Source of the DNA: Halalkalibacter suaedae
GTDB taxonomy: Bacteria; Bacillota; Bacilli; Bacillales; Bacillaceae_D
Length of the DNA stretch: 64,000 nucleotides
Direction of reading: 5' to 3'
Assembly: GCF_017939705.1 (NCBI RefSeq)
Contig: NZ_JAGKSQ010000001.1
Coordinates: 434,001 to 498,000 of the forward strand
Part shown: piece by piece, positions 14,693 through 61,177 of the stretch
How the letters are laid out: each line of letters starts with the position of its first letter
How positions within the stretch are numbered: position 1 is the first letter of the stretch
Position numbers and translations under genes: made by a program
The notes under the pieces: generated by a model
Told to the model about the DNA's origin: nothing
Database searches by the model: none
The model's input: only the letters and a program-made list of their open reading frames with translations

Positions 14693-14809
14693 AGCGGACG
14701 GGATGGGTAGGCCGACTCCTGCAGGAAATAAGGGCAAAATGGAAATCCACCGGCGAGCCGGTTAGTTCCATGCCCTCCTGCGGAAAGCGTGCCCCCCATC
14801 CCGGTAGCG
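14693..14809 (+). repeat. Family B intergenic repeat, copy B1
   Basis: Starts AGCGGACGGGATGGG and ends CCCATCCCGGTAGCG. It is a nested palindrome with inner arms CCACCGGC and GCCGGTTAG, middle arms around GGGC and GCCC, and motifs CTCCTGCAGGA and CTCCTGCGGAAAGCG. The short open frames over it are by-products of its composition. Confidence 0.9.
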
Positions 14810-14845
14810 AAGGGCGAAGAACACCCCGTAACTCCTAATGAAAAA

Positions 14846-14887
14846 ACCTGTCGACTTTCTCGCTTTTACGAGACTTTATCGACAGGC
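14846..14887 (-). terminator. Intrinsic terminator downstream of metQ
   Basis: Long hairpin with arms related to CCTGTCGA-TTTCTCG and CGAGA-TTTATCGACAGG, followed on the minus strand by TTTTTTC. It ends the metNPQ transcript 15 bases past the metQ stop. Confidence 0.9.
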
Positions 14888-14901
14888 TTCTGATCGTTTG
14901 T

Positions 14902-15753
14902 TTAGTTATTTACTGGAATTACTGCACCGTTATACGTTTCATCAATAAATTGTTTAATTTCATCAGATTGTAACACTTCAAGTAATTTAGTTAACTCTGG
15001 ACGCTCAGCATCTTCCGAACGAACAACGATTAAGTTAGGCTGAAGAACATCTTCGCCTTCAAATGCAATGCCGTATTTCTCAATATCTACTCCACCTTCA
15101 AGTGCGTAGTTTAGATTAATAACAACAGCATCTCCTTCACCATTCTCAAAAGATGGAGCTAACATTTTAGCTTCTACTAACGTTTCACCGAATTGAAGGT
15201 TCTTAGGATTTGAAACAATATTTTCAATTGTCGCAAGCTCTCCTTCTGCCACATCTAATTCAATCAAGCCAGCACGTTCAAAAATAGGAAGAATACGACC
15301 ATGGTCACTAATAGAATCACTCATAATAATATTCGCACCTTCAGGAAGCTCTTCTAGACTTGAATATTCTTTTGAATAGACACCGATTGGCTCGTAGTGT
15401 ACTTCACCAATACTAACAAAGTCAAAATCATCATTTTCGTCTAATTGCATAGCTAAGTATCCAGGTGTTTGGAAGTAATTCGCATCAATGTCTCCATCGC
15501 GTAAAGTTGTGTTTGGTAGAATATAATCTTGGAATGTGACAATTTCAAGATCAATTCCTTCTTCAGCAAGAATCGGTTGTGCCGCTTCAAGAATTTCTGT
15601 ATGCGGTACTGCTGAGGCTCCAACTGTAATCGTCGTTGTTTCCTCTTCCTCTACTGATCCTGTTCCTGACTCTGTTTCTTCCTCTGCTGTTCCACACGCT
15701 ACTAATGATAATGCTAATGCTGCAGTACCTAATACTGTTACAAATTTCTTCAT
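14902..15753 (-). CDS. metQ: Methionine ABC transporter substrate-binding lipoprotein
   Basis: Extracytoplasmic NlpA/MetQ-family lipoprotein that captures methionine for MetNP. The signal peptide ends in a lipobox (ALSLVACG, Cys at about residue 20), followed by an acidic linker and a periplasmic-binding fold of about 240 residues with QDYILPN and DANYFQTPGYL typical of MetQ. I start at MKKFVTVLG, 8 bases after GGGGG; ATG codons one or two triplets upstream and a GTG are less well spaced. Third gene of an S-box-controlled operon. Confidence 0.94.
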   Translation of the reverse strand: MKKFVTVLGTAALALSLVACGTAEEETESGTGSVEEEETTTITVGASAVPHTEILEAAQPILAEEGIDLEIVTFQDYILPNTTLRDGDIDANYFQTPGYLAMQLDENDDFDFVSIGEVHYEPIGVYSKEYSSLEELPEGANIIMSDSISDHGRILPIFERAGLIELDVAEGELATIENIVSNPKNLQFGETLVEAKMLAPSFENGEGDAVVINLNYALEGGVDIEKYGIAFEGEDVLQPNLIVVRSEDAERPELTKLLEVLQSDEIKQFIDETYNGAVIPVNN

Positions 15754-15770
15754 TTTCATTTCCCCCACTC

Positions 15771-16439
15771 TTATCTTTTATCTGTTTTATGTGAAAAGTA
15801 ATCACCCAACCATTGCACAATAAATACAATGATTAGAATAACTACTGTTGCCACCAATGTAATTAAACTATTGTTTCTTTGCCACCCTTCTAGATAGGCA
15901 AAGTGCCCTAATCCCCCCGCACCGATAGCCCCAGCCATTGCTGTGTAGCTAATTAAGGCAATCGATGTAACGGTAATTCCAGAAATAAGAGCTGGTAAGG
16001 ATTCAGGGATTAATACTTTACGAATAATATCCCAATCGTTCGCTCCCATGGCCTGTGATGCTTCAATCACACCTTTATCAATTTCTCTTAGAGCAATCTC
16101 AACCATTCTAGCGTAGAAAGGAGCCGTACCAATAATTAATGCTGGCAAAGCGGCATCTGCACCTAGCATTGTTCCTACTAACACTTTTGTGAACGGAATA
16201 AGTAAAATAATTAAGATAATGAAAGGAATTGACCTAAATACATTCACAATCGTACTGAAGATGAAATTAACTACTCTATTCTCCCATAGGCTTCCTTCAC
16301 TAGTTAAATAGAGAACCAAGCCAAGAATAATACCAATAATGAATGTAGCAACAACCGAGATTGAAGTCATATAGATCGTCTCAACAGTTGCTTCCCAGAG
16401 CTTATCTACTTTTACTTCTGACAGAAATTGCTCAATCAT
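15771..16439 (-). CDS. metP: Methionine ABC transporter permease
   Basis: MetI/MetP-family membrane subunit of about 222 residues with five predicted membrane segments. The coupling motif that docks on MetN is visible as EASQAMGANDWDIIRKVLIPESLP (about residues 130-153, given here only to locate it; key residues E-A-x3-G). ATG start has a perfect GGAGGTGA 7 bases upstream and lies inside the end of metN (8-base overlap), so translation is coupled. Confidence 0.95.
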   Translation of the reverse strand: MIEQFLSEVKVDKLWEATVETIYMTSISVVATFIIGIILGLVLYLTSEGSLWENRVVNFIFSTIVNVFRSIPFIILIILLIPFTKVLVGTMLGADAALPALIIGTAPFYARMVEIALREIDKGVIEASQAMGANDWDIIRKVLIPESLPALISGITVTSIALISYTAMAGAIGAGGLGHFAYLEGWQRNNSLITLVATVVILIIVFIVQWLGDYFSHKTDKR

Positions 16440-17457
16440 GGGCAATCACCTCCACTTCAACTCTCTTACTCTTAATGAAGGATATCGCCTTATCGATCTC
16501 ATCATTTTCTCCATTTAGTGCAATGAATAATGTTCCATACGAACCTTCATGGATTTTGGTGATTTTACCTTGAACGATATTCACTTCTATCTCAAAGGTT
16601 CGTATTAATTGAGTAATTAATGGGCGCTCAGCCTCTTCACCGACAAAGGTCAGTTGAAGAATGCGTCCATTAGGATGTTCAGCAAGCATTTGCGAGAATG
16701 CTTCTGTTGTTTCCTCTGGTTCTGTAATTTGCTTAACAAACTCTTTTGTCATTTGTTGTTTAGGATTTCTAAACACCTCTAACACGGGACCTTGTTCAAC
16801 AATTCTTCCTGCTTCCATCACGGCAACCTGATGACAGATTTTACGAATGACATGCATTTCATGTGTGATTAAAATAATTGTCAGCCCTAGCTTCTCATTA
16901 ATGTCTACAAGCAAATCAAGGATCGAATCCGTTGTTTTCGGATCAAGAGCTGAGGTCGCTTCATCACATAGAAGAACTTTCGGATTATTCGCTAATGCTC
17001 TCGCAATACCAACTCGTTGCTTTTGACCACCACTTAATTGAGATGGATAGCTATCTCCTCTTCCTTCTAAACCAACCAGCTTAATTAATTCCTCAACCCT
17101 TTGCTTTCTTTCTGCATTTGCCACACCAGCAATTTCCAAGGGGAAAGAGATATTTTCACGAACTGTACGTGACCAAAGAAGATTAAAATGCTGAAAGATC
17201 ATTCCAATTTCTTGACGAGCTTTCCGCAATGATTTGCTTTTGAGTGAAGATAACACTTGATTATCAACAATCACGCTACCTTCTGTTGGACGTTCAAGCA
17301 AATTAAGCATTCGTATTAATGTACTCTTACCTGCACCACTATATCCAATCACACCGAAGATCTCGCCCTCTTCGATTTTTAAATCAACACGGTCAACAGC
17401 CGTAACAAGACCATCCTTCGTTTTAAATACCTTTCGGATGTCTTTTAGAGATATCAT
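16432..17457 (-). CDS. metN: Methionine ABC transporter ATP-binding protein
   Basis: Energises methionine import. The 341 residues match B. subtilis MetN. Walker A GYSGAGKST (about residue 38), signature LSGGQKQR (about 139), Walker B VLLCDEATSALD (about 160) and a C-terminal NIL domain (about 260-341), which senses methionine in homologues. I start at MISLKDIRKVFKT; an ATG two codons upstream is also possible. Preceded by an S-box leader, so expression should fall when SAM is abundant. Confidence 0.95.
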   Translation of the reverse strand: MISLKDIRKVFKTKDGLVTAVDRVDLKIEEGEIFGVIGYSGAGKSTLIRMLNLLERPTEGSVIVDNQVLSSLKSKSLRKARQEIGMIFQHFNLLWSRTVRENISFPLEIAGVANAERKQRVEELIKLVGLEGRGDSYPSQLSGGQKQRVGIARALANNPKVLLCDEATSALDPKTTDSILDLLVDINEKLGLTIILITHEMHVIRKICHQVAVMEAGRIVEQGPVLEVFRNPKQQMTKEFVKQITEPEETTEAFSQMLAEHPNGRILQLTFVGEEAERPLITQLIRTFEIEVNIVQGKITKIHEGSYGTLFIALNGENDEIDKAISFIKSKRVEVEVIAHD

Positions 17458-17552
17458 TGCCATCACCCACTTTCCCAATAAAAGAACTCAGCTTTAGTTC
17501 GGTATCAATCTAACAGGCTTGCATAGACCATGTCAACAGGTACCGAATGATT

Positions 17553-17593
17553 AGAAAAAACCTCTCTATCCAATGATGAACAGAAAGGTTTCA
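17553..17593 (-). terminator. S-box terminator hairpin
   Basis: AAACCTTTCT pairs with AGAGAGGTTT, followed by T-run TTTTTC, directly 3' of the S-box aptamer on the minus strand. This is the expected position for the SAM-dependent terminator of the metNPQ leader. Confidence 0.85.
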
Positions 17594-17605
17594 AAAATGC
17601 CTCTC

Positions 17606-17722
17606 TCTCATCTCTCAAAGCAATGCTGCTTTGCAGGATTTAGCACCTTGTTAAATGATTTATAATCATTTACCGGTTGCCGGGCATCGTCGGGCCAGTC
17701 CCTCCGCCTCTCTGGATAAGAA
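17606..17722 (-). promoter_or_regulatory. SAM-I (S-box) riboswitch aptamer for metNPQ
   Basis: Minus-strand leader with the conserved S-box landmarks: CTTATCCAGAGAGGCGGAGG, GGACTGGCCC, GATGCCCGGCAACC, AAGGTGCTAAATCC and GAGAGATGAG. P1 pairs CTTATC with GATGAG. When SAM binds, the downstream terminator forms and metNPQ is off. Known S-box logic; read directly from sequence here. Confidence 0.95.
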
Positions 17723-17757
17723 TTACATTATACTGTTAGGTTTTTTTACATGAGAGA

Positions 17758-17787
17758 ATAATAGCATACTAGAAAAAAAGATGTCAA
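17758..17787 (-). promoter_or_regulatory. Sigma-A promoter of the S-box/metNPQ transcript
   Basis: Perfect -35 TTGACA and -10 TATTAT separated by 18 bases, located about 35 bases upstream of the S-box and just after the MFS gene stop codon. Confidence 0.75.
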
Positions 17788-17793
17788 ACAAAA

Positions 17794-19062
17794 TTAAGCG
17801 GCACTTTTTTCCTTTTGCTTATCGATCTTTCTAAATACAAGTAAAAAATAAGTTGAGCCGAGTAAATACAGGACAGCAGTAATCGTAAACACATACGCAT
17901 AACCATAATAAGCACCATAGACCATAACAATCGACGTAGAAACAGGACCCATTAATGCCCAGCCTAGCTGAAAGACTGACTGACCAACGGAATTCGCTAA
18001 TCCTTTCATAGAATCATCGACCGTTCTCATAATTAACGCCATTTGGATCGGGTTACCTGCATTCATTAAAGCTTGTCGGAATAAGAAGCCAAGAACTGCT
18101 AACCAAAGCGTTTCAGTATAAGCTGTAATGAGTAAAAATGGTAATGATGCCATTTGTAGCATGACGACTGCCTTCACTTCGCCAAAGCGTTTGACGACAG
18201 ATGGACCGATCATAAAAGCAACTGCTGTCATCGCTTGCCCAAGTGAAAGAATGATGCCAACAAGTGAGTTACTAATTTCGAAACGATCACTGAAGTATAA
18301 ATTCAAATATGGAATAACAAGCCCTGAACCAAACCCAATTAAAAGGTTAGCCACAGCGAACAAACCAATCCATTTTAGGCTGGAGCGATAGTCTGTGAAT
18401 ACTTTTCTAAAGGAAAGCTTTTCCGTTCGTTTGACCTTTTTTTTCCTTTTCTCTTCTTTAATAAAAAACATTGGAACTAATGCGATAAAGAACATGAATG
18501 CTCCAATAAGCAATGTAAATCTAACACTTTCAAGCATCGACATATTAAAGAATGCGTGTAATGTATCAGATAATGTTCCTCCAAGGGCATTCCCTAAAAC
18601 ATTGGCAACCATTATGATCGCAAAGTTGAAGCTAAACAAATGAACACGTTCCCGTTCAGTAGAATTCTCCGCTAAAAGAGGAATTGAGGAAACTTGAATA
18701 CAGGCCATAAACAAACCAGTCATAAACGCCGTTGTCAAAAGACTGCTTTCATCTATTAGTATCGCACGTAATAATAAGCTTGCTGCAGTAAAAATAGCCC
18801 CAATAATAATGATTCGTTTACGTCCAACTTTATCACTCATTAGACCCGCAGGCAGCAGTGCAATTGCACTTGCTGTCGCTTGCATCGCAATTACTCGCCC
18901 ATTCACTTGATCATCGAAACCAAGTTCACGTATATAATAATTATAAATAACCATGAAAATCCCCATACCAATATTGGATAGGACGGACGACAATAAAAAC
19001 AATCTGACATTTTGATTGTAGCTTTTCAGTTGTTTACCCCAATCCCCAACAAACCGACCCAT
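17794..19062 (-). CDS. MFS transporter
   Basis: Major facilitator protein of 422 residues with about 12 hydrophobic segments and the MFS loop 2-3 motif in GLMSDKVGRKRIIIIG (about residues 80-95). A basic cytoplasmic loop (KEEKRKKKVKRTEK, about 205-218) splits the two halves. The family handles many solutes and I cannot name the substrate; drug or metabolite export is plausible. Transcribed separately from metN, whose promoter starts just after it. An inverted repeat (19087-19115) lies upstream. Confidence 0.85.
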   Translation of the reverse strand: MGRFVGDWGKQLKSYNQNVRLFLLSSVLSNIGMGIFMVIYNYYIRELGFDDQVNGRVIAMQATASAIALLPAGLMSDKVGRKRIIIIGAIFTAASLLLRAILIDESSLLTTAFMTGLFMACIQVSSIPLLAENSTERERVHLFSFNFAIIMVANVLGNALGGTLSDTLHAFFNMSMLESVRFTLLIGAFMFFIALVPMFFIKEEKRKKKVKRTEKLSFRKVFTDYRSSLKWIGLFAVANLLIGFGSGLVIPYLNLYFSDRFEISNSLVGIILSLGQAMTAVAFMIGPSVVKRFGEVKAVVMLQMASLPFLLITAYTETLWLAVLGFLFRQALMNAGNPIQMALIMRTVDDSMKGLANSVGQSVFQLGWALMGPVSTSIVMVYGAYYGYAYVFTITAVLYLLGSTYFLLVFRKIDKQKEKSAA

Positions 19063-19086
19063 ATGTCACACCTAGCCTTCACTTTT

Positions 19087-19115
19087 ATTTCGCCACTCTA
19101 AATAATAGGCGAAAT
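19087..19115. promoter_or_regulatory. Inverted repeat upstream of the MFS gene (possible operator)
   Basis: Arms ATTTCGCC and GGCGAAAT, perfect, separated by 13 bases, 25 bases upstream of the MFS start codon. The position suits an operator or leader hairpin. Function not known. Confidence 0.4.
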
Positions 19116-19127
19116 TACATGAAAAGA

Positions 19128-19163
19128 AAAGTCCTTTATCAATTATTTTTGACAAAGGACTTT
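19128..19163 (-). terminator. Intrinsic terminator downstream of yusG
   Basis: Arms AAAGTCCTTTGTC and GA(T)AAAGGACTTT around a T-rich loop, with T-rich tails on both strands. It lies 9 bases after the yusG stop. Confidence 0.85.
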
Positions 19164-19172
19164 CCTTTTTTT

Positions 19173-19409
19173 TTAACACCAGCCTTCTTCACAGCTGTCT
19201 ACATATGATTTAACTTGATTAGGGTCTTCTTGTTGAAAACGAAAGATTTTGTCTTGATCAAATTCAAACCCTTCAGCCATTTCATGCTGAAGACCTTGAT
19301 TTGTTTCAATTACTTTACCAACCTTAGCATCTCCCATATAAAGGGATAACGCTCCATCCTCATATCTACCCTTTACCTGACTCGTTACATCGACACGTAC
19401 GAAATCCAT
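19173..19409 (-). CDS. yusG: YusG, DUF2553 protein
   Basis: Small acidic protein of 78 residues of the YusG/DUF2553 type; function unknown. Two cysteines near the C-terminus (SCEEGWC). The start MDFVRVDV is fixed by GGAGG 8 bases upstream; the open frame runs on upstream to 19502 into repeat A3 but without an RBS. In B. subtilis yusG is next to gcvH and yusI, as here, though repeat A3 separates it from gcvH. Confidence 0.85.
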   Translation of the reverse strand: MDFVRVDVTSQVKGRYEDGALSLYMGDAKVGKVIETNQGLQHEMAEGFEFDQDKIFRFQQEDPNQVKSYVDSCEEGWC

Positions 19410-19489
19410 CGCTTTAACCTCCTTACAGAAGTTAATTTTAGTATGCCACTGCCTTGACGAAACAAACATGAGAAAATTAGTCAAAAAAA

Positions 19490-19730
19490 GAGGCCAGAAC
19501 AAAAGTGTCTAAACTAACTTTAAAACCGAACAACGGTAGTCGGCGGTTGTAAACCGCTCCTGAAATATACTTCGCTTTCCGCGGGAAGCCGGTGAGCCTC
19601 CTCGTGCCTCGGCACTGCGGGGTCTCACCTTTGGCTTTATCATCCCGCAGGAGTCTACGTATATTTCATCCGCTACGTGATTGCTTTGTTCGGTATTTCA
19701 GTTAGCCACTTTAGTTACGACCTAGCCTCT
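19490..19730 (+). repeat. Family A intergenic repeat, copy A3
   Basis: Full copy of 241 bases. Outer arms are diverged but still pair (AGAGGCCAGAAC and CGACCTAGCCTCT, allowing mismatches). The core begins CGCTTTCCGCGGGAAGCC, contains GGTGAG...GGGGTCTCACC and ends CCCGCAGGAGTCTACG. It lies between gcvH and yusG within one transcriptional direction. Confidence 0.9.
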
Positions 19731-19739
19731 CTTACAAAG

Positions 19740-20126
19740 TTAATCTTGTTTAATCATTTCGCCGTATTTTTCAGCGTCCATTAATTGATTCAATTGATCC
19801 TTATCTGTTGGTTCGATGACAACCATCCAAGCTTTTTCATATGGAGATTCATTAACAAACTCTGGCGAATCGTCTAACGTTTCATTTACTTCAACAACTT
19901 TACCGCTAATTGGGGCATATAGCTCAGAAACCGTCTTAACTGATTCAACACTTCCGAAAGGCTCGTTCGCTTCAATCTCATCTCCAACCTCAGGAAGCTC
20001 AACAAAAACGATGTCTCCCAACTCCGATTGTGCAAAGTATGTAATTCCAATACGAACCTTATCTCCCTCAACCTTTACCCACTCATGTTCTTCTGAATAC
20101 TTTAAATCCGTTGGTAACTGACTCAT
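19740..20126 (-). CDS. gcvH: Glycine cleavage system H protein
   Basis: Lipoyl-carrying protein of 128 residues. The lipoylated lysine is Lys64 in the standard context [14 protein letters not shown]. Besides shuttling the aminomethyl group in glycine cleavage, GcvH of B. subtilis is an intermediate carrier in lipoyl transfer to other enzymes; lipA at the start of this window makes the cofactor. gcvP and gcvT are not in the window. RBS GGAGGG; followed by repeat A3. Confidence 0.97.
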
Positions 20127-20196
20127 TCGAAAATCCCTCCATTTTATCTACTTACTCAGACTCATTATACCTACTATAAGGACAAAACAAAACGTA

Positions 20197-20553
20197 TTAT
20201 TTCCAATTTTGCTCAAATTGGTCTTCTTTAAAACCAAGCGTTACGTTCTTACCGTCTGTTGTAAGAGGGCGCTTGATCAGCATGCCATCTGATGCTAACA
20301 AGGCAAGGGCTTCATCTTCAGAAATAGAAGGCAAACGATCCTTTAATCCAAGTTCTCTATATTTTTGGCCACTCGTATTAAAAAATTTCTTTAGCTCGAG
20401 CCCACTCGTGTCGAGAAATGCCTTCAGCTGTTCCTTTGTCGGTGGATTTTCGACAATATGTATATCATTTACCTCGATCCCTTTCTCATCAAACCATTTT
20501 TTCGCTTTCCGACATGTTCCACATTTAGGATACTGATAAAAAGTAATAGCCAT
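20197..20553 (-). CDS. yusI: ArsC/Spx-family thioredoxin-fold protein YusI
   Basis: Protein of 118 residues of the ArsC/Spx/MgsR family. The redox CxxC is CGTC at about residues 11-14 in YPKCGTCRKAKKW, followed by VENPPTKEQL and the family motif LIKRPLTTDG near the C-terminus. True arsenate reductases of this fold use one Cys; this CxxC is the Spx-like type, but without a known RNA polymerase contact. Function of YusI is not established. Upstream of gcvH, as in B. subtilis. Confidence 0.87.
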   Translation of the reverse strand: MAITFYQYPKCGTCRKAKKWFDEKGIEVNDIHIVENPPTKEQLKAFLDTSGLELKKFFNTSGQKYRELGLKDRLPSISEDEALALLASDGMLIKRPLTTDGKNVTLGFKEDQFEQNWK

Positions 20554-20596
20554 GATTCATTTCTCCTTCCGTTTTCTTCTCATATTATCTCTTAAT

Positions 20597-21039: not shown

Positions 21040-21061
21040 ATTTTTCTTAGGGGGATTAAAA

Positions 21062-21382: not shown

Positions 21383-21389
21383 AAAAAGA

Positions 21390-23176: not shown

Positions 23177-23368
23177 GAGACTGTAGACAAAAACCTAGAA
23201 CCAACTATATATGAGATTAGTTACAATCTCTTGAATGGTTGGATGCACACTGTGATTGCCAAAATCATATCGGTAATTTTCTACTTTCATTAGATAATAG
23301 GGGACTACACCTGTTAGAAGGAATGTGTTGAAAAGGAAGGACGATCCCATTCATTATACCTCTAACGC

Positions 23369-23484
23369 AGCGGACGGGATGGTGGGCCGACTCCTGTAGG
23401 AAATAAGGGCAAAATGGAAATCCACCGGCGAAGCCGGTTAGTTCCATGCCCTCCTACGGAAAGCGTGCCCCCATCCCGGTAGCG
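23369..23484 (+). repeat. Family B intergenic repeat, copy B2
   Basis: Same architecture as B1: AGCGGACGGGATGG start, CTCCTGTAGGA, GGGCAAAATGGAAATCCACC, inner CCGGCGAAGCCGG, CTCCTACGGAAAGCG and CCCATCCCGGTAGCG end. Compensating differences between the CTCCTGTAGG and CCTACGG motifs keep pairing possible. Confidence 0.9.
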
Positions 23485-23574
23485 GAGTCGAAGCGTCTTA
23501 TTATAGCCTATAGCCCTTCTTACTAATAAAAAAAGCTTACTAATTCCTCTCAAAAGATCTTTGTCAACAAGCTA

Positions 23575-24630: not shown

Positions 24631-24646
24631 TCTTTACAATAAACAG

Positions 24647-24668
24647 AGGCTTGGACATAACTAAAGTG
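24647..24668 (-). repeat. Family A solo outer arm (A6 remnant)
   Basis: AGGCTTGGACATAACTAAAGTG matches, with one difference, the reverse complement of the right arm of family A copies. No core or second arm follows. Other content of the gap 24630-25092: two hairpins and repeat B3; no gene. Confidence 0.65.
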
Positions 24669-24700
24669 ATTGACTGAATTTTCCAAACAAAACCTCTTTT

Positions 24701-24728
24701 AGTGGTCTCATGCAAATGTGAGGCCACT
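24701..24728. other. Hairpin sharing GAGGCCACTGA with the eno 3' region
   Basis: AGTGGTCTCA and TGAGGCCACT form a stem with one G-T pair and an 8-base loop. The flank TGAGGCCACTGA recurs at 49671-49681 behind eno. Confidence 0.5.
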
Positions 24729-24765
24729 GATAATCGTAATTTTTGATTAGTTGCAGGTGAAAAAT

Positions 24766-24818
24766 AGGAGTACAGGAAAAGATAATCCATAGCATGGGTC
24801 ATCTTTCCCTGTACTCCT
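24766..24818 (+). terminator. Long hairpin, probable terminator for the YjbQ gene
   Basis: Arms AGGAGTACAGG-AAAGAT and ATCTTT-CCTGTACTCCT around a loop of about 17 bases, followed by TTTTGATTTTTTC. The distance of about 135 bases from the yjbQ stop is long. Confidence 0.6.
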
Positions 24819-24919
24819 TTTGATTTTTTCTCTTTTATGTTTTTCATAGCCAAAATTATACAGTATTCTCTTGATGTTCACTGTGAAGAGCAGAAAAATT
24901 CTATCCTTCCTTTCATCTA

Positions 24920-25036
24920 AGCGGACGGGATGGGAGGGCCGACTCCTGCAGGATTAAAGGGCAGGTTGAAATCCACCGGCCTAGCCGGTTAGTTCAGCGC
25001 CCACCTGCGGAAAGCGCGCCCCCCATCCCGGTAGCG
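24920..25036 (+). repeat. Family B intergenic repeat, copy B3
   Basis: AGCGGACGGGATGGG start, CTCCTGCAGGA, GGGCAGGTTGAAATCCACC, inner CCGGCCTAGCCGG, CACCTGCGGAAAGCG and CCCATCCCGGTAGCG end. Located just downstream of hxlR. Confidence 0.9.
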
Positions 25037-25091
25037 GAATCGAAGCGACTTTTATGGCTACTCTCTTTCTATCTCTAGTCAAGAGTGTTAT

Positions 25092-31823: not shown

Positions 31824-31854
31824 CTTCTTCCGAAAGTAAGAGCTAATTTCTATC

Positions 31855-32078
31855 GAGGTCTGACAAAGGCTCAAACTAAATTAAAAAGCGATAGTGTTGA
31901 AATACCGCTCCTGAAATATACTTCGCTTTCCGCGGGAAGCCGGTGAGCCTCCTCGCGCTTCGCACTTGCGGGGTCTCACCTTTGGCTTTACATCCCGCAG
32001 GAGTCTACGTATATTTCATCCGCTAAATTATTTATTTATTCGGAATTTCAGTTAATAATTTCGTTAAGCCCCGACCTC
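31855..32078 (+). repeat. Family A intergenic repeat, copy A4
   Basis: Full copy of 224 bases with diverged outer arms (GAGGTCTGAC and CCCCGACCTC). The inner part is well conserved: CCTGAAATATAC, CGCTTTCCGCGGGAAGCC, GGTGAG...GGGGTCTCACC, CCCGCAGGAGTCTACG, GTATATTTCATCCGCT. It lies inside the sugar operon, between the binding-protein and permease genes. Confidence 0.9.
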
Positions 32079-32116
32079 TTAGATCAGATCTTATACAACC
32101 TTCTTGGTTTCTTATA

Positions 32117-39917: not shown

Positions 39918-40002
39918 AATTTGGCTCTAATTAGCTGTCTCAGTGAGGCAGCAGCTATGGAGGTAGACAAAAGAAAGTAGATTTCCATTTCATCTCTAAC
40001 TC

Positions 40003-40120
40003 AGCGGACGGGATGGGTGGGCCGACTCCTGCAGGATGGAAAGGGCAGGTTGAAATCCACCGGCACAGCCGGTTAGTTCAACGCCCTCCTGCGGAAAGCG
40101 TGCCCCCCATCCCGGTAGCG
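40003..40120 (+). repeat. Family B intergenic repeat, copy B4
   Basis: AGCGGACGGGATGGG start, CTCCTGCAGGA, GGGCAGGTTGAAATCCACC, inner CCGGCACAGCCGG, GTTCAACGCCC, CTCCTGCGGAAAGCG, CCCATCCCGGTAGCG end. It fills most of the 370-base gap between the TetR gene and the GS-HQR gene; nothing else is recognised there. Confidence 0.9.
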
Positions 40121-40290
40121 AATTCGAAGCGTATAATCCTGGCCAATTCACACTATGAACGTTTTCTTTGGGGTAGCTTTCAACACTCTCTCCCATATCT
40201 CTTGACTAGACAAGAAAATTCAGACTACAATACGGTAACTAGTTACTTCGATAATTAACTATTAAATACCGAATCAAGAGAGGTGCTCCT

Positions 40291-41855: not shown

Positions 41856-41878
41856 GATAAAGAAGAAGTCAGCAAATT

Positions 41879-42115
41879 GAGGCTGCGACAAAAGTGATTT
41901 AACTAATAGAAAATCCGACAATGGTGGTTAGCGGACGTAAACCGCTCCTGAAATATACTTCGCTTTCCGCGGGAAGCCGTTGAGCCCTCCTCGGCTATGC
42001 CTGCGGGGTCTCAACTTTGGCTTTACATCCCGCAGGAGTCTACGTATATTTCATCCGCTACATTATTGGATTGTTTGGTATTTCAGTTAAACACTTTAGT
42101 TATATCCCAGCCTCA
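41879..42115 (+). repeat. Family A intergenic repeat, copy A5
   Basis: Full copy of 237 bases with outer arms GAGGCTGCGACAAAAGTG and TTATATCCCAGCCTC. The core differs in both hairpin arms at once: GTTGAGCC...GGGGTCTCAAC instead of GGTGAGCC...GGGGTCTCACC, a compensatory change that keeps base pairing. Confidence 0.9.
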
Positions 42116-43300: not shown

Positions 43301-43660
43301 TGGTGGAGACGGAGGGAGTCGAACCCTCGTCCAAGAATAACGACACTTACGCTTCTACGAGCATAGTTACTGTATTAGCATTTCGCCAACAATTCAGCCC
43401 AGTAACAGGCTTCCTTTTGGCTAGTCTGATTGATCTCTTCCTTCACCCTCAGACGGAGGGTAACCGGCGTAGCCCACTTAGAGTGAGTCCCAGGTCCTAC
43501 CACATGGGCGATGGAGGTTGGAACCGCAAAGCAGTATTAAGCTGCTAGTGCGAAGTTATTGTTTTCTTTGCCAGTTAATGGCTTTGGCGTTTTAACGAGG
43601 CCGACCCCCTCGACTCGCAACGTAAGCACGACCTATCCCTGTCGAATCCAGAACGTCCCC
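43301..43660 (-). ncRNA. ssrA: Transfer-messenger RNA (tmRNA)
   Basis: Rescues stalled ribosomes with SmpB, whose gene lies just upstream. The 5' end GGGGACGTTCTGGATTCGAC and 3' end GGGTTCGACTCCCTCCGTCTCCACCA (located at 43301-43326) form the tRNA-like domain, CCA being encoded. The tag reading frame (43537-43572) gives GKENNNFALAA then TAA, so with the charged alanine the tag is A-GKENNNFALAA, ending in the LAA degron read by ClpXP. Length 360 nt is normal. Confidence 0.97.
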
Positions 43661-53402: not shown

Positions 53403-53411
53403 TTATGGGAA

Positions 53412-54687: not shown

Positions 54688-55716
<1,029 letters not shown>

Positions 55717-55755
55717 CTAATTAGATTTATCAAAAAGGGTTATTAGCCCTTTTAT

Positions 55756-56781
55756 CTACGGTAAATGTAACAATGATTCAGCAGCTGCTTCATCAGTAAT
55801 CAGTACATCACTAGGGCGATATTTCATATATGAAGCAATCGCTTCCGCCTTTGAATCTCCGCCAGCAATGGATATTACATACTTATCATCATTCTCTAAG
55901 TCATCTAGCTGAAGACCAATTGTCCGCTGCTTATGAATAGGTTTCCCGCTTCGGTCAAAATAAAAACCAAACGATTCTCCTACAGCTTCTTCTCGGTCAA
56001 GCTTATCAACAAAAGAAAACTGAGAATCACGACGAAGTGCCATTGTTCTAGCATCACCAATTCCGTGAATAACTGTTGAAGCAGATTTAATCAGCTTTAG
56101 GATATCCTGTACTGATGGTTCTAATACAAGAGATGTGTAAGCTTCCTCACTGATTTGCTCAGGCACATGTAGAAGCCTGTACTGTGCTCCAGCTCGAGTC
56201 GCTAACTGAGCACTTATGGTGTTCGCCTGGTTTTCTACTTGTTCTCCAAGCCCACCCCTTGCTGGAACAAACATCACATCGCGAAGCTTCGGATCTGGCA
56301 TCATCATCTCAGCAACAGCTGCAACGGTTGTACCACCCATAACTGCAACGACATCTTTATTTCCTAGACGTGATTTTAAAAGACTTACACAAGACCGTCC
56401 CATCTCTCTTTTAACCCATTCATCCTTATCACTGTTTCCAGCAACAACAATGACTTGTTTTACTCCGAGTTGGGCTTCAAGACTTGTCTCAAGCTCCCTT
56501 AATCCAAGGAGCTCCTTCATCACATCTTCAAGGGTTAAGAATAACGTTTCCCCTTCGGCAGTTACACTCATCCCTGCCGTGGCAAAATGAACAAGTCCCT
56601 GTTCTTTAAGAAACGTAACCTCTCCTCGCAAAACCCTTTCGGAAATTTGCAAGTTCTGGGCCAGACTTCTTCTGCCAATCGGCTGCATTAATTTTATGTA
56701 TCGTAGGATTCTGTAACGCTTGATCATGACATCAAGCAAATCGGGCAATAACTTTTTTTGCATGTCTAATAATCGTTTCAT
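55756..56781 (-). CDS. cggR: Central glycolytic genes regulator CggR
   Basis: SorC/DeoR-type repressor of 341 residues. N-terminal helix-turn-helix in IGRRSLAQNLQISERVLRGEV (about residues 30-50) and a C-terminal sugar-phosphate-binding domain with GGTTVAAVAEMM and GIGDARTMALRR. In B. subtilis fructose 1,6-bisphosphate relieves repression. I start at MKRLLDMQKKLLPDLL, as in B. subtilis, 9 bases after GAGGGG; the frame extends upstream through the operator, which cannot be coding if this is right. Confidence 0.95.
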   Translation of the reverse strand: MKRLLDMQKKLLPDLLDVMIKRYRILRYIKLMQPIGRRSLAQNLQISERVLRGEVTFLKEQGLVHFATAGMSVTAEGETLFLTLEDVMKELLGLRELETSLEAQLGVKQVIVVAGNSDKDEWVKREMGRSCVSLLKSRLGNKDVVAVMGGTTVAAVAEMMMPDPKLRDVMFVPARGGLGEQVENQANTISAQLATRAGAQYRLLHVPEQISEEAYTSLVLEPSVQDILKLIKSASTVIHGIGDARTMALRRDSQFSFVDKLDREEAVGESFGFYFDRSGKPIHKQRTIGLQLDDLENDDKYVISIAGGDSKAEAIASYMKYRPSDVLITDEAAAESLLHLP

Positions 56782-56807
56782 CGAGTCTAACCCCTCGCTT
56801 GTAAGTG

Positions 56808-56843
56808 GACTCTTTTTGTCCCGCATAGACGTTTCGTGTCCCG
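56808..56843 (-). promoter_or_regulatory. CggR operator
   Basis: Minus strand CGGGAC-N6-CGTC-N4-CGGGAC-N6-AGTC, the same spacing as the B. subtilis operator CGGGAC-N6-TGTC-N4-CGGGAC-N6-TGTC. It lies about 33-68 bases downstream of the predicted start, where bound CggR would block elongation. Confidence 0.9.
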
Positions 56844-56882
56844 ATACTCCCAAAAAAAAGACGTAATCCTTTTTACTCTTAT

Positions 56883-56911
56883 ATAGTATCAAGAATCACT
56901 CTTTTTCACAA
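56883..56911 (-). promoter_or_regulatory. Sigma-A promoter of the cggR-eno operon
   Basis: TTGTGA, 17 bases, TACTAT on the minus strand, directly after the glutaredoxin-like gene stop and upstream of the CggR operator. Confidence 0.7.
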
Positions 56912-56912
56912 G

Positions 56913-57164
56913 TTAAAATTCTCCAATTTTCGCTTGAAGGTAGCTTTTAACTTTATTTTCAGATATTTGACCAAAGTCAATTTCAACTCCATCACTTACG
57001 ACAACAGGGATCATAATCTGATATTTTTCGAGTAATTCATCATCCTGATATATATCTACAACCTTAATCTTAAACGTAAATTCAGATTGTAGAGTGCTAA
57101 TTTTGGCAATGGCCTTATCACAAAGTGGGCAATCAAGCTTTGAGTAAACGGTGATCACTTGCAT
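56913..57164 (-). CDS. Glutaredoxin-like family protein
   Basis: Thioredoxin-fold protein of 83 residues with CPLC at about residues 12-15 in YSKLDCPLCDKA, cis-proline in MIPVVVSDG (about 53), and no extra domains. It belongs to the DUF836/glutaredoxin-like group; the reductant and target are unknown. Stand-alone gene upstream of the glycolytic operon; RBS GGAGG. Confidence 0.88.
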   Translation of the reverse strand: MQVITVYSKLDCPLCDKAIAKISTLQSEFTFKIKVVDIYQDDELLEKYQIMIPVVVSDGVEIDFGQISENKVKSYLQAKIGEF

Positions 57165-57235
57165 TTGTTATCCTCCTCTTTTGCTTCTACTTTAGTTGTA
57201 CCAAATGTAGCTATCCTTCACAAGTTTGAGCGAAA

Positions 57236-57277
57236 AAGGGGCCCCAACAGGTTGACACACCTTTGGAAACACCCCTT
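57236..57277 (-). terminator. Terminator of the gntR-ABC operon
   Basis: Outer AAGGGG/CCCCTT and inner CCAA-AGGT/ACCT-TTGG arms form a long hairpin followed by TTTCG on the minus strand, just past the last gene. Confidence 0.8.
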
Positions 57278-57281
57278 ATCA

Positions 57282-57977
57282 TTAAAATTCTTCCTCGTCC
57301 TCGATATCAATATAAACATTTGGATGGGACGACACCTCAACACCCTCTGGTATTTCCAAGTATAAAATCGTTTCTCCATACCAAACAGAGGATCCCATAC
57401 GATCATGATCGATCTGTTTTTCTGTAAATTGAGTAATCGTGAATTCTTTTTGTTCCTCTGCAAAGGTAAGCTCATATTCCTTTGGAGGAACTAATAGCAA
57501 CTCATTTCCGGTTTGTTGTATCTCAATTGGTTTAATATGTTCTGAAACATCTATACCGTTTATGATGTGATCTGTTGCATAAAAGGCTCCACGTAGCTGC
57601 CCCGGCTTTTGTATTCGTTTGACTATAATAGAAGGTCCATAATAGTCATCATCAACAGTAAAGTGAATGCGATCACCAATTGGTATGCTCCATTCCTTAA
57701 GCTTGTAATCTTCTAACTCATCAAACCGACTTTCTTCTAACAAATTGTACAAATCAATTTGTTGTTCTGGCTCTTCTTCAACCATTTCAAACCTCACTTC
57801 AGAAGTTGGAGTGTAGGCGTAAATAGCAACAGAAACTAGTAGCAGAACAACATATATAAATACGAGCGGCCTTAGCATATTTTGACCGAAAAAGATTCCA
57901 ATCCCTCCGAATGGTTTTGAGACACTTAGAAAAATAACAAGCATTGTGATAAGCAAGACGATTAATAAGAGAAACAT
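57282..57977 (-). CDS. Membrane-anchored protein of unknown function
   Basis: I do not recognise a family. The 231 residues start with two membrane helices (about 2-20 and 33-54), followed by a strongly acidic soluble domain of about 175 residues, probably outside the membrane. The C-terminus is IDIEDEEEF. Its start overlaps the stop of the permease gene by one base (TAATG) with GGGGG upstream, so it is translated with the ABC genes. It may be an accessory or sensor part of that transporter. Confidence 0.7.
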   Translation of the reverse strand: MFLLLIVLLITMLVIFLSVSKPFGGIGIFFGQNMLRPLVFIYVVLLLVSVAIYAYTPTSEVRFEMVEEEPEQQIDLYNLLEESRFDELEDYKLKEWSIPIGDRIHFTVDDDYYGPSIIVKRIQKPGQLRGAFYATDHIINGIDVSEHIKPIEIQQTGNELLLVPPKEYELTFAEEQKEFTITQFTEKQIDHDRMGSSVWYGETILYLEIPEGVEVSSHPNVYIDIEDEEEF

Positions 57978-58726
57978 TACCTAACCCCCAATCGATTTGA
58001 CCCTACGATTGATAGCGAAAATAGAATAAGTGAGATGATAATAATTTTAACTGCAAAAAGAGAAAAGGATGACTCAGTAAAAAGATGTTTATTCAGTACG
58101 GAAAGAATGAAAGGGAGCTCATTTTGACCAGCTCCAATATATAAGCTTCCGAAACCAGCTGCCGGAATAACAAGAACAAGTATCTTATGAAACTGAGCAA
58201 GCATCCCTACGAAATAGCCTACAGCACAAACTAGCAATACATATAAAATCGTGGCTCCAATCCCAACGAAAACCTCAACTGGTGCATCCAGGAGTGAAAT
58301 GGTTTTCAGTGACTCAAACCCTCTAAAATAATAGAGAATAGATTTCAAAGCAAATCCTGAAAGCATAGACGTCAGTCCACCAAATACACTAATTGTCACG
58401 AGAAACGCAATATTGGCTAAATGGCTACTTAAACGATTCGCAATAAACGTAAAATCATCGTAACGATAACCTCTTGTCGTAATGAGGACTGACGTGATAA
58501 ATCCCCATAACAATGTGAAAGCGATCATCATATCGGCAGAGAAATATCGGATTGTCATAGAAATTTGATCAGAACCTGTTCCGTACATTGACGAACCATT
58601 TGATGCAAAAACCATGGCAATAACTTGTAACAACATTAATGTTCCAAATACACCAAAATAAGATTTCAGCTTAAACAAATATTGTTTTTTTGCAACCTCT
58701 TGTAAGCTAATTCTCTTTAAAGACAT
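57977..58726 (-). CDS. ABC-2-like membrane permease
   Basis: Hydrophobic protein of about 249 residues with six membrane segments (about 25-45, 70-90, 103-125, 150-178, 185-205, 220-245). It follows an ABC ATPase gene with a 20-base overlap, so it is the likely membrane partner. Sequence resembles the permeases of YtrA-regulated ABC systems; substrate unknown. Start MSLKRISLQ is 8 bases after GGAGG; a TTG two codons upstream is also in frame. Confidence 0.78.
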   Translation of the reverse strand: MSLKRISLQEVAKKQYLFKLKSYFGVFGTLMLLQVIAMVFASNGSSMYGTGSDQISMTIRYFSADMMIAFTLLWGFITSVLITTRGYRYDDFTFIANRLSSHLANIAFLVTISVFGGLTSMLSGFALKSILYYFRGFESLKTISLLDAPVEVFVGIGATILYVLLVCAVGYFVGMLAQFHKILVLVIPAAGFGSLYIGAGQNELPFILSVLNKHLFTESSFSLFAVKIIIISLILFSLSIVGSNRLGVR

Positions 58727-59609
58727 CGTCAATTCCTCCTTTCGTTTTACTTGTCAGATAAACACACAAGTCACTTGATCGAACAGCCGACAGTTCTAAT
58801 CCTGAAGCTTTGATCTCATTTTTCTCACTTTCATAGAAGTCATCTTCTACAACGACGTACGTGCTATCAACACCGACTGTTTTTGAGTAATAAACATCTC
58901 TATCCTTTGTCCACTGATCAACAAGGTGTTTGGGTCCAGTCATCCCGATTGCCATACTTTTGAGTGTTGATAATGACGTGTGTAAGCAAACTGTTCCTTC
59001 CTTTATTAAAAGAACGTCCTCAAGGATGTCTTCAATCTCATCCATATGATGACTTGATAACAGAATCGTTCGCGGATGTGCTAAATAATCCTTTAACAAA
59101 GCTCGATAAAAATCAGCTCGTACGGCCGTATCCATCCCTGTTGTCGGCTCATCAAATATTGTCAATGGACAACGAGCGGCTAACCCAATAATCATATTGA
59201 ACGTACTTTTCTTTCCTTTTGACAAACGGTTGTGACGTTGACCGGCGTTAAATGAAAAGTAATCAAACAAACGAAGAGCCAGCTCATGATCCCAGTTAGG
59301 ATAGAAGCTCTTTGCCACTTGTAAAACCTCCCGTAAATCAAGCGTTGTTGGTATACCCATTTGATCATCTACGAGAATTGTATTTGCTGAGACAAGTAAG
59401 CTATTAAACGGATTTTCAGAGAACACTTGTATTTCTCCGCTCGTTGAGTGTGTAAAACCAGCAATTAACTTCAATAACGTTGTTTTTCCAGCACCGTTTC
59501 TACCAATCACACCCGTTATAATATTTTCTTCTATTGTAAACGTAACATCTTGTAGTGCCTTCATATTTCCAAAGGACTTTGAGACCTCCTTACAACGAAC
59601 GACACTCAT
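58707..59609 (-). CDS. ABC transporter ATP-binding protein
   Basis: ATPase of 300 residues: Walker A GRNGAGKTT (about 36), LSKGKKST in place of the usual LSGGQ signature (about 129), Walker B LTIFDEPTTGMD (about 151), SSHHMDEI switch, then a 90-residue C-terminal extension. The K-containing signature (SKGKK) is a known variant in this subgroup. Likely exporter partner of the adjacent permease. Overlaps gntR by 4 bases. Confidence 0.9.
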   Translation of the reverse strand: MSVVRCKEVSKSFGNMKALQDVTFTIEENIITGVIGRNGAGKTTLLKLIAGFTHSTSGEIQVFSENPFNSLLVSANTILVDDQMGIPTTLDLREVLQVAKSFYPNWDHELALRLFDYFSFNAGQRHNRLSKGKKSTFNMIIGLAARCPLTIFDEPTTGMDTAVRADFYRALLKDYLAHPRTILLSSHHMDEIEDILEDVLLIKEGTVCLHTSLSTLKSMAIGMTGPKHLVDQWTKDRDVYYSKTVGVDSTYVVVEDDFYESEKNEIKASGLELSAVRSSDLCVYLTSKTKGGIDDVFKEN

Positions 59610-59989
59610 CCTTCTTCCCCCTCCTTTTGATTCGCCTCTTTAATCATTTCTAGTAGTTCCGTTTCATCTACATTCAATTGCCTAGCCTCTTTTACTAAAT
59701 CAGCTACTAACTGTTGCAATACTCCATTTTTCCGTTTTTGTAAAATGATTTCTTTTGCGTGTTCAGAAACAAACATACCGAGTCCTCGCTTTTTAAATAA
59801 AATGTCGTCGTCTACTAATAAATTTAAGCCCTTCGCTGCCGTTGCAGGATTAATCGTAAACATGTCTGCAAGCTGATATTGTGAATAAACCTTTTCGTCT
59901 ACATGGAGATTTCCTCGCAGGATTTCCGATTCAAGCCAATCGGATATTTGAACATAAATCGGCTTGTTTCCATCATGATCAAGTATCAA
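59606..59989 (-). CDS. GntR-family (YtrA-type) regulator
   Basis: Short regulator of 127 residues: winged helix at 1-70 (PIYVQISDWLESEILRGNL and YSQYQLADMFTINPATAAKGL) and a brief C-terminal helix typical of the YtrA subfamily, which controls ABC operons. I start at TTG (codon giving MILDHDGNKP), 9 bases after AAAGGAG. The ATG at 60019 lies inside the operator palindrome and lacks an RBS. First gene of the operon; autorepression is expected. Confidence 0.9.
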   Translation of the reverse strand: MILDHDGNKPIYVQISDWLESEILRGNLHVDEKVYSQYQLADMFTINPATAAKGLNLLVDDDILFKKRGLGMFVSEHAKEIILQKRKNGVLQQLVADLVKEARQLNVDETELLEMIKEANQKEGEEG

Positions 59990-60010
59990 GCACTTCAACT
60001 CCTTTCTAGC

Positions 60011-60038
60011 ATACTGCATTACTGTTGTAATGCAGTAT
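60011..60038. promoter_or_regulatory. Perfect palindromic operator of the gntR-ABC operon
   Basis: ATACTGCATTAC, 4-base spacer, GTAATGCAGTAT. It overlaps the -10 and transcription start of the gntR promoter, as expected for YtrA-type autorepression. Confidence 0.75.
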
Positions 60039-60062
60039 ATGATAAATTGTAAATAAATTCAA
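60034..60062 (-). promoter_or_regulatory. Sigma-A promoter of the gntR-ABC operon
   Basis: TTGAAT, 17 bases, TATACT on the minus strand; its -10 lies within the operator. Confidence 0.7.
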
Positions 60063-60211
60063 GTGAATTCACCTAATAAATAGAAATAAACCTAGTCTTC
60101 CTCTTTCTAGAGATACTAGGGTAGTTTAACTGTTTAGAAAATCGGTTATCATGAAAGCAGGGTTTAAAACTATAGATAGGGAATAGTATAGTATAAGAAG
60201 AAGTGTTATTA

Positions 60212-60228
60212 TTTGACCTTCTTTGACC
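60212..60228 (+). promoter_or_regulatory. CtsR operator
   Basis: TTTGACC-TTC-TTTGACC; the reverse complement GGTCAAA-GAA-GGTCAAA fits the CtsR heptad repeat (A/G)GTCAAA-NAN-(A/G)GTCAAA exactly. It overlaps the clpP promoter. Confidence 0.92.
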
Positions 60229-60241
60229 TATTAAGTATGAT
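60213..60241 (+). promoter_or_regulatory. clpP sigma-A promoter
   Basis: TTGACC, 17 bases, TATGAT. The -35 is part of the CtsR box, so CtsR binding excludes polymerase. Confidence 0.8.
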
Positions 60242-60281
60242 GTATACATAATCAGAAAGAAATATGAAGGAGGATTTACTA

Positions 60282-60866
60282 ATGAATTTAATCCCTACAG
60301 TTATCGAACAAACAAATCGAGGTGAACGTGCTTACGATATTTACTCGCGTTTGTTAAAGGATCGTATTATTATGCTTGGAAGTGCTATTGATGATAATGT
60401 AGCAAACTCCATTGTTGCTCAGCTTCTTTTCCTACAAGCAGAAGATCCAGAGAAGGATATTTCAATTTATATCAACAGTCCAGGTGGGTCGATCACAGCT
60501 GGTATGGCTATTTATGACACAATGCAATACATCAAGCCAAAGGTATCGACAATTTGTATCGGTATGGCTGCATCAATGGGTGCATTCTTACTTGCAGCTG
60601 GTGAGAAAGGAAAGCGATTCGCTTTACCTAACAGTGAAGTGATGATTCACCAACCACTTGGCGGAACACAAGGTCAAGCGTCAGACATCCAAATCCATGC
60701 AAAACGTATTATCGAAATGCGTGAGACTTTAAACAAGATTCTTTCAGAGCGCACTGGTCAACCGATCGAAGTGATTGAGCGTGATACGGATCGTGATAAT
60801 TTCATGGTGGCTTCAAGAGCACAAGAGTATGGATTAATTGACAAGGTTATTCCTGCTTCAAAGTAA
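60282..60866 (+). CDS. clpP: ATP-dependent Clp protease proteolytic subunit
   Basis: Serine protease subunit of 194 residues that works with ClpX/ClpC/ClpE; it also degrades proteins carrying the tmRNA tag encoded in this window. Catalytic Ser in [11 protein letters not shown] (about 97) and His in [10 protein letters not shown] (about 122), Asp near 171. Start [10 protein letters not shown] is standard and has GGAGG; an in-frame ATG six codons upstream is not used. Heat and stress control by CtsR is indicated by the operator. Confidence 0.97.
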
Positions 60867-60900
60867 TTACTAATTGAAGTTAGTTTACATGTTAGACAGA

Positions 60901-60928
60901 ACGCCTTTGAGAAATTTCTCAAAGGCGT
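60901..60928 (+). terminator. Intrinsic terminator of clpP
   Basis: ACGCCTTTGAGAAA and TTTCTCAAAGGCGT, perfect palindromic stem, then TTTTGC on the plus strand. Confidence 0.92.
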
Positions 60929-60969
60929 TTTTGCTTAATTTAATTGTAGTTGGTGACACCGAACAATTC

Positions 60970-61010
60970 GAGACTCCTGCGAGAAGTGGCGTGACAAAGT
61001 GAGACAGACG
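60970..61010 (-). repeat. Possible decayed family A/B core fragment
   Basis: AGACTCCTGCGAGAAG followed by AAAGTGAGAC resembles the reversed end of the family A core (AGACTCCTGCGGGA ... AAGGTGAGAC). It is too short for certainty. Confidence 0.35.
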
Positions 61011-61060
61011 ATAGGTTATTGGCATTTAAAGAGAGTGGCCATAATATGTCGCTTCGCACA

Positions 61061-61177
61061 CGCTACCGGGATGGGGGGCACGCTTTCCGCAGGAGGGCGT
61101 TGAACTAACCGGCTGTGCCGGTGGATTTCAACCTGCCCTTTTTTCCTGCAGGAGTCGATCCGCCCATCCCGTCCGCT
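61061..61177 (-). repeat. Family B intergenic repeat, copy B5 (inverted)
   Basis: Reverse orientation to B1-B4: plus strand begins CGCTACCGGGATGGG, contains ACGCTTTCCGCAGGAG, inner CCGGCTGTGCCGG, CTGCAGGAGTC and ends CCCATCCCGTCCGCT. The rest of the 800-base gap 60866-61661 shows no gene, only terminators and a possible decayed fragment. Confidence 0.9.

Follow-up and report, generated by a model that had tools for sequence, protein, structure and literature searches.

Two sequence-unlike repeats in Halalkalibacter suaedae are subfamilies of one palindromic repeat family

Why should two repeats with different interiors carry the same short motifs in the same order? The question is raised by a 64,000-nucleotide stretch of the Halalkalibacter suaedae genome (NCBI RefSeq assembly GCF_017939705.1, contig NZ_JAGKSQ010000001.1, positions 434,001 to 498,000), here called the window, which holds nine copies of two repeats, four of family A and five of family B. 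A sequence-only reading of the window had proposed that an 11-base left motif (ACGCTTTCCGC) and a 9-base right motif (GCAGGAGTC) form the ends of both families, and that both are handled by one recombinase or processing enzyme, for which a TnpA-REP/Y1 transposase or similar was to be looked for, or are folded and recognized by one factor. We find that A and B belong together as subfamilies of a single repeat family. The shared motifs are real and occur far above chance, but they lie inside a long nested palindrome, as boxes, and are not the ends of the elements.

The copies in the window, with E-values from the covariance model described below, are:

14359..14599, + strand: A14, family A, with outer GGCTGGGACA/TGTCCCAGCC arms; core 14419-14546; repeats D2/D3; covariance E 7.8e-19
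19487..19730, + strand: A19, family A; core 19547-19677; covariance E 9.5e-24
31838..32080, + strand: A31, family A; core 31898-32027; covariance E 1.1e-23
41875..42115, + strand: A41, family A; core 41935-42062; covariance E 6.7e-21
14662..14817, - strand: B14, family B, facing A14 (A+ B- pair); core 14690-14817; covariance E 2.3e-11
23344..23511, - strand: B23, family B, with CGCTTTCCGT and ACAGGAGTC; core 23366-23492; covariance E 3.3e-11
24894..25049, - strand: B24, family B; core 24917-25044; covariance E 7.9e-12
39980..40147, - strand: B40, family B; core 40000-40128; covariance E 3.3e-11
61048..61203, + strand: B61, family B; core 61053-61180; covariance E 1.2e-12
61080..61090, + strand: box 2 (ACGCTTTCCGC) of B61, exact match
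61148..61156, + strand: box 4 (GCAGGAGTC) of B61, exact match
2136..2281, + strand: coreless A, with outer arms and left P1 arm; core gone exactly between two CGCT copies

With at most one mismatch allowed, ACGCTTTCCGC has nine sites in the window, all of them in elements (shuffle mean 0.54, maximum 3). GCAGGAGTC also has nine sites, eight of them in elements (shuffle mean 0.22, maximum 2) and one stray at 60972-60980 (-); besides that of B61, the element sites start at 14516, 14714, 19647, 24941, 31997, 40024 and 42032. The order of the motifs agrees between A and B, as the sequence-only reading had noted, and so does their spacing; the printed window copies continue to TCCGCT. The identity that it claimed for the left 11-mer needs trimming: the exact string is present in four of the nine copies (B61, and at 14444-14454 (+), 14780-14790 (-) and 40091-40101 (-)), its first base varies, and the constant part is CGCTTTCCGC, found in eight of the nine. 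Genome-wide (4.32 Mb), CGCTTTCCGC occurs 191 times versus 3 for the backwards string, GCAGGAGTC 215 times versus 11, and the ordered pair 148 times versus 0 for the backwards pattern. We give practically no weight to A and B being two unrelated repeats that share motifs by coincidence of chance or base composition, a view refuted by the shuffles, by the backwards-string controls and by a single model that matches all nine copies.

When 80 A and 48 B copies are lined up on the motifs, conservation reaches well past them, from about -85 to +76 in A and from about -45 to +55 in B. By the criterion that the sequence-only reading had set, the motifs therefore do not define element ends; family A is about 240 bp long and family B about 175 bp. 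The A outer arms, GGCTGGGACA and TGTCCCAGCC, are terminal inverted repeats. The interiors do differ in sequence, as had been claimed, but not in architecture. Both families follow the order CCGCT - P1 - [A/T]CGCT - P2 - P3 - apical module - P3' - P2' - TC - P1' - TCCGCT, where P2' contains a bulged A and the boxes usually span 77-87 nt. P1 is TGAAATATAC/GTATATTTCA in A and CGGGATGGG/CCCATCCCG in B, and P2 is extended by RNAalifold to TTCCGCGGG/CCCGC-A-GGAG. The apical module is AGCCTCCTC/GGGGTCT in A and AACTAAC/GTGGATTT in B, with further versions in relatives. The family has the traits of miniature inverted-repeat transposable elements (MITEs), being short, non-coding, present in many copies and bounded by terminal inverted repeats (the A arms, ~240 bp), and also BOX-like traits, namely modularity (alternative apical modules, chimeras and coreless forms) and a preference for convergent gaps. 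Both A outer ends are recognizable by pattern in only 11 of 80 copies, and at these A ends none of the 11 has a target-site duplication.

Two kinds of variant were seen in the copies of the H. suaedae genome. Nine of 65 B-type (beta) matches form a subfamily in which box 2 is GCACCCGCC-like instead of CGCTTTCCGC while AGGAGTC is kept (L166, L170, L200, L203, L206, L207, L213, L222 and L228); a similar copy is present in Halalkalibacter wakoensis (L136). Seven of 76 A-type (alpha) copies are chimeras, in which an A left half is followed, where the right half should be, by another repeat (GAGGCCACTGAAAAAG-like), the same one each time (L193, L198, L205 with two, L217, L219 and L226).

Stems P1 to P3 covary while the boxes stay nearly fixed. 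Across 114 loci from other, named genomes, P1 arms pair at a mean of -13.7 kcal/mol with their own partners versus -7.1 kcal/mol when arms are swapped; at least seven of nine Watson-Crick P1 pairs form in 66/122 own versus 7/122 swapped combinations, and RNAalifold finds double changes at 11 of 20 pairs. A fixed-register count in the H. suaedae genome, which covers only P1, P2 and P3 pairs placeable by patterns, gave 1137 Watson-Crick, 2 A.C and 0 G.T pairs in B stems, and 2012 Watson-Crick, 7 G.T, 9 A.C and 22 other pairs in A stems. Among the alpha copies of this genome, anchored on the apical box, CGCTTTCC is exact in 76/76 and AGGAGTC in 64/76; 50 of the 65 beta matches have both box 2 and AGGAGTC, which occur together at 3 of 3000 random places. 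The stretches from this genome were picked around CGCTTTCCGC sites (159 of 191 included), and copies lacking CGCTTTCCGC are therefore under-sampled, coming from about one third of the genome.

RNA kept on one strand should favor G.U pairs generally; an RNA that folds from either strand would look the same as DNA in this respect. In the named loci, G.T and A.C pairs number 15 versus 27 in P1 and 15 versus 14 in P3 (together 30 versus 41, p 0.24), and in relatives 6 versus 6; a positive control for G.U, eight tRNA acceptor stems with 3 G.T and 1 A.C, is too small to calibrate the count. Since G.T shows no general excess over A.C, stem pairing seems to be kept at the DNA level or on both strands. 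For studies of covariation, the family supplies a large natural set whose pairing is apparently maintained at the DNA level.

How far does the family extend? A covariance model (R1) was built from 72 of the 114 named-genome loci, hand-picked for length and likeness, one of which (L123) has a beta-type interior. Its only matches at E<=1 are the window copies, of which it finds all nine, with E-values of 7.8e-19 to 9.5e-24 for A and 1.2e-12 to 3.3e-11 for B. At least 119 stretches fetched from named genomes with the box motifs, most of them Bacillales by name, have the same box order around quite different stems; the sequence-only reading had named more interior types between fixed ends as support for its model, and several types do share the boxes in many genomes. 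Of 397 genomes of the order, 255 have the ordered pair and none has its backwards control; in a set of relatives that includes H. suaedae, 23 of 30 genomes have the pair. Copy number differs widely among relatives: 12 congeners hold 0 to 82 copies and, with H. suaedae (148), the range within one genus is 0 to 148. An element of the family is also present in Pisciglobus halotolerans (L072, NZ_FOQE01000037.1), a member of a genus outside the Bacillales. Plasmid and phage records were searched with one Neobacillus element (L043), neither A nor B; its relatives are found on 16 plasmid records, and none was detected in phage records at that search sensitivity. Repeats that are unlike in sequence thus become one family when structure is compared, and other lineage-specific repeats of the Bacillales may be the same element.

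The core is flanked by direct repeats of TCCGCT(CC), which in the GTTGATT type are the 8-bp TCCGCTCC. Because the outer boxes are direct repeats, a coreless hairpin could be predicted, and it was then found: TTGATTTCCRCTNCAATCAA has 65 sites, spread over 35 of 397 genomes, while its backwards control has none in any of the 397 (about 0.1 expected). Of the 10 coreless copies that were fetched, about 6 show, by eye, outer flanks like those of full elements. Four coreless A copies in the H. suaedae genome, including the one at window positions 2136-2281, share a common junction. These forms make the loss step measurable in a laboratory strain.

One orthologous site in another genus, between a putative esterase-like and a putative secG-like gene, allows the direction of change to be assessed. 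Here the core is complete in G418, G411 and G409 and internally deleted in G330, and G351 has one box only; the outer element boundaries at the site are not crisp. A left-flank tree of 25 loci, 19 of which lack the element by pattern (a decayed relative of it is present in G421 at least), places G351 in a clade of five rows that also holds the three full copies and one genome without the element. The left half of the core in G330 matches the full copies in sequence, so that one insertion followed by precise loss of the core in G351 is the simplest reading, though not a proven one.

Two further observations concern the same site. G411 and G409 have an additional 126-bp insertion within the core (L272 ~2778-2903 and L273 ~2777-2902), flanked by a short direct repeat ending CTTTCC. 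A second, facing element with another P1 (GGTGAGGGGAACTGC/GCAGTTCCCCTCACC) lies at L271 ~1004-1116 and L273 ~3125-3237, and is reduced in G351 and G411.

Gene context was assigned with simple open reading frame calls for 124 of 129 elements, those with both neighbors callable; 10 of the 129 overlap a call. Convergent gaps hold 59 of the 124 elements versus 113 of 577 among gaps of at least 100 bp (p 7e-10), and divergent gaps are avoided (3/124 versus 128/577). In convergent gaps a copy usually has its 5' side closer to a gene than its 3' side (B 24/25, A 24/34), and sense copies lie a median of 66-80 nt behind the stop codon. Co-directional gaps have no orientation bias (27 sense versus 35 antisense). 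The A outer arms often have T- or A-rich flanks (15/29 right ends, 31/51 left ends), and 13% of random 9-mers are as T-rich. By a rough rule, a sense terminator-like hairpin lies within 500 nt behind 11 of 48 B copies; several of these hairpins, seen by eye, are of the CTTTGAGA/TCTCAAAG kind.

Neighboring copies pair in a regular way. All ten close pairs of a strict scan join A with B, facing each other. A relaxed scan (107 A, 68 B) gave 30 close pairs: 16 A+B-, 8 B+A-, 5 tandem AA, which may be single copies detected twice, and 1 A+B+. Unlike pairs thus make up 25 of 30 (label permutation p 5e-5), 24 of them facing, and facing AA or BB pairs were not found in that scan. Two like copies facing each other would form a long, unstable inverted repeat, which may be why facing pairs join A with B.

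We propose that A and B are probably a high-copy, non-coding, non-autonomous palindromic DNA repeat of BOX/MITE-like kind that is recognized by its unpaired boxes. Near-fixed boxes amid changing stems suggest selfish DNA recognized by shape. A copy would fold into nested stems P0, P1, P2 and P3 and an apical stem, with short unpaired boxes between them: CCGCT(CC), [A/T]CGCT, an apical box pair (two or more main versions), AGGAGTC and TCCGCT. Constraint would act on the boxes and on the pairing of the arms, while stem sequence would drift, and it is through this drift that A and B would come to look unrelated. A single strand may fold during replication or transfer, and a putative host or transposon protein, for which a Y1 enzyme would not be required, may recognize the boxes in the folded DNA and spread the copies. 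Loss of the core could occur by slippage between direct repeats across the hairpin, and copies would persist at the least harmful places, downstream of stop codons, with outer arms that may in some cases act like terminators. That both families are folded and recognized by one putative factor, as the sequence-only reading envisaged, gains indirect support from the single covariance model, the covarying stems, the near-fixed boxes and the several interior types that share these boxes in many genomes. Which protein spreads a hairpin without a Y1 transposase becomes a concrete search problem. In a bolder and less likely version, the elements would be order-wide DNA "aptamers", of which only the unpaired boxes are recognized and the stems are free to change if paired; a putative non-Y1 protein would copy them and could also remove the core at TCCGCTCC, and A and B would be separate "species" of one parasite, set tail to tail on account of the instability of like pairs.

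Several observations weigh against this proposal. No mobilizer was found among the Y1/RAYT candidates, the only ones tested, and no target-site duplication is seen at A ends, so that mobility is deduced from copy number and from presence or absence. Box 2 is not absolutely needed, given its replacement in nine of 65 beta copies. Because the end motifs served to fetch the named loci, their invariance in that set follows from the way it was collected. The copies also share ancestry, so that double changes represent fewer events than cells. P0 gives no pairing signal with fixed offsets (-6.2 versus -5.8 kcal/mol). With a best-offset register, own-genome P1 has 23 G.T versus 5 A.C, of which 22 G.T come from one B base opposite a G run; because this base is variable (T 22, G 15, A 9, C 3, n=49), we read them as an unconstrained mismatch. 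As to core loss, the coreless A junction is at the CGCT of box 2 and not at box 1, unlike the GTTGATT type; G418 has GCAGCGAGA instead of TTCCGCTCC as its right box at the orthologous site; and support for the clade of G351 is modest (87/96), with one member that lacks the element.

The same data can be read in terms of RNA. Were A and B functional structured RNAs, for example bidirectional terminators or 3'-untranslated-region hairpins, kept by selection in each gene's transcript, the preference for convergent gaps, the position of sense copies shortly past stop codons, the nearer 5' side and the T- or A-rich flanks of the A arms would all fit. So would an apical pair that reads T.G in 58 of 72 loci, an observation that also counts against pairing kept at the DNA level. 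Selection on both strands would, moreover, remove G.T and A.C alike. We nevertheless consider this explanation unlikely: there is no general G.T excess, co-directional gaps are without orientation bias, copy number runs from 0 to 148 in one genus, and Rfam has no family for the elements at its gathering score (window; L232, L264, L271), the best sub-threshold match being 25.9 bits versus 50 (two element-bearing loci and one coreless locus).

A mobilizing enzyme of the kind first suggested would make A and B repeats like REP/BIME, moved by a Y1 (HUH) transposase of the REP-associated tyrosine transposase (RAYT) kind that recognizes hairpin and bulge. The H. suaedae genome does encode one Y1_Tnp protein, RAYT-like and located outside the window (271 aa; L259:1093-1908 (-), G000:C11:821330), with a helix-turn-helix-like stretch at its C-terminus (HTH_23 just under the curated cut-off). 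RAYT-like relatives are present in 226 of the 397 genomes of the order, more often with the element (172/255) than without (54/142; odds ratio 3.4, p 1.7e-8), and in all 15 of the most element-rich genomes; this order-wide association may be phylogenetic, and within genera none was detected (p 0.37). Among 97 genomes with at least 20 copies, 73 have a RAYT-like protein and 24 do not; 20 of these 24 have no Y1_Tnp (PF01797) match at all and four do, and two of the 20 (G352, G371) are single-contig. A Y1 enzyme is therefore unneeded for high copy number unless it has since been lost, and a transposase lost after the spread would indeed escape this test. The only Y1 gene of H. suaedae lies in a stretch of 3333 bp without any CGCTTTCCGC. 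Tested at three levels, Y1/RAYT as a required mobilizer was rejected; the single recombinase considered by the sequence-only reading thus finds no support as a requirement in the form of a Y1 enzyme, and we regard RAYT mobilization as improbable. Slightly more doubtful still is a core that is itself a discrete mobile unit, one that enters a small resident hairpin at its loop and duplicates 8 bp (TCCGCTCC). The bounding direct repeats and the empty one-copy hairpins, about 6 of the 10 fetched having by eye the outer flanks of full copies, fit such a unit; on the other hand, the tree at the single orthologous site favors loss, P1 and the outer sequences vary between genomes as though the whole were one element, and empty sites at the box 1/box 5 junction number zero in the at least 119 named loci and, for A or B, in about one third of the H. 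suaedae genome.

Is the family already known under another name? Searches of the literature with motif strings and topics returned no paper naming the A/B repeat, as judged by titles and the starts of abstracts; a name may exist elsewhere. Bacillus halodurans belongs to the same order. Its Bhal-1 is described as a 74-bp structured repeat with 36 copies (PMC2267715). The length is close to the 77-87 nt box span of A/B, a comparison by size and copy number only, and the excerpted description of Bhal-1 contains no boxes, subfamilies or core loss, unlike A/B (PMC2267715); Bhal-1 may be the same family. Nearest in kind, by our comparison, are BOX/RUP/SPRITE and bcr1. One Streptococcus pneumoniae genome has 125 BOX, 110 RUP and 30 SPRITE short hairpin repeats, described in excerpt as parasitic, non-autonomous and over-represented between convergent genes, BOX being modular and SPRITE terminator-like (PMC3049150). 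A/B resemble them as short interspersed hairpins, in modularity (BOX) and in the preference for convergent gaps (PMC3049150). BOX and RUP have terminal inverted repeats and target duplications, whereas no duplication is seen in A/B (A ends), and A/B, unlike BOX/RUP/SPRITE as excerpted, are order-wide, with varying stems and near-constant boxes (PMC3049150). The bcr1-bcr18 repeats of the Bacillus cereus group (100-400 bp, bcr1 with up to 130 integral copies) are like A/B in size, copy number and mobile-like character; the excerpted description sets them apart, linking bcr mobility with a TTTAT motif and restricting the first bcr element to the B. cereus group (PMC6542083). REP/BIME are, in the excerpt, high-copy extragenic palindromes of 20-40 bp with GTAG or CGTC tags, thought to be mobile, and no obvious correlation was seen between transposase genes and REP families (PMC3733652). 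A/B are likewise high-copy extragenic palindromes without a clear transposase correlation, but are about 150-240 bp long and do not require a Y1 gene (PMC3733652). We conclude that the A/B family is a variant of an already known kind of repeat, for which an earlier name is possible.

A few minor features of the window remain. A lone A-type outer arm lies at 24643-24678, about 215 bp 3' of B24; by eye, lone A outer arms 3' of B look like remnants of larger composites. A further hairpin repeat (AAGGAGACAGG.../...CCTGT.CTCC) was seen by eye at window positions 24640-24900 and in several B tails. Rfam matches in the window are a SAM riboswitch at 17605-17722 (-) and a tmRNA at 43301-43660 (-).

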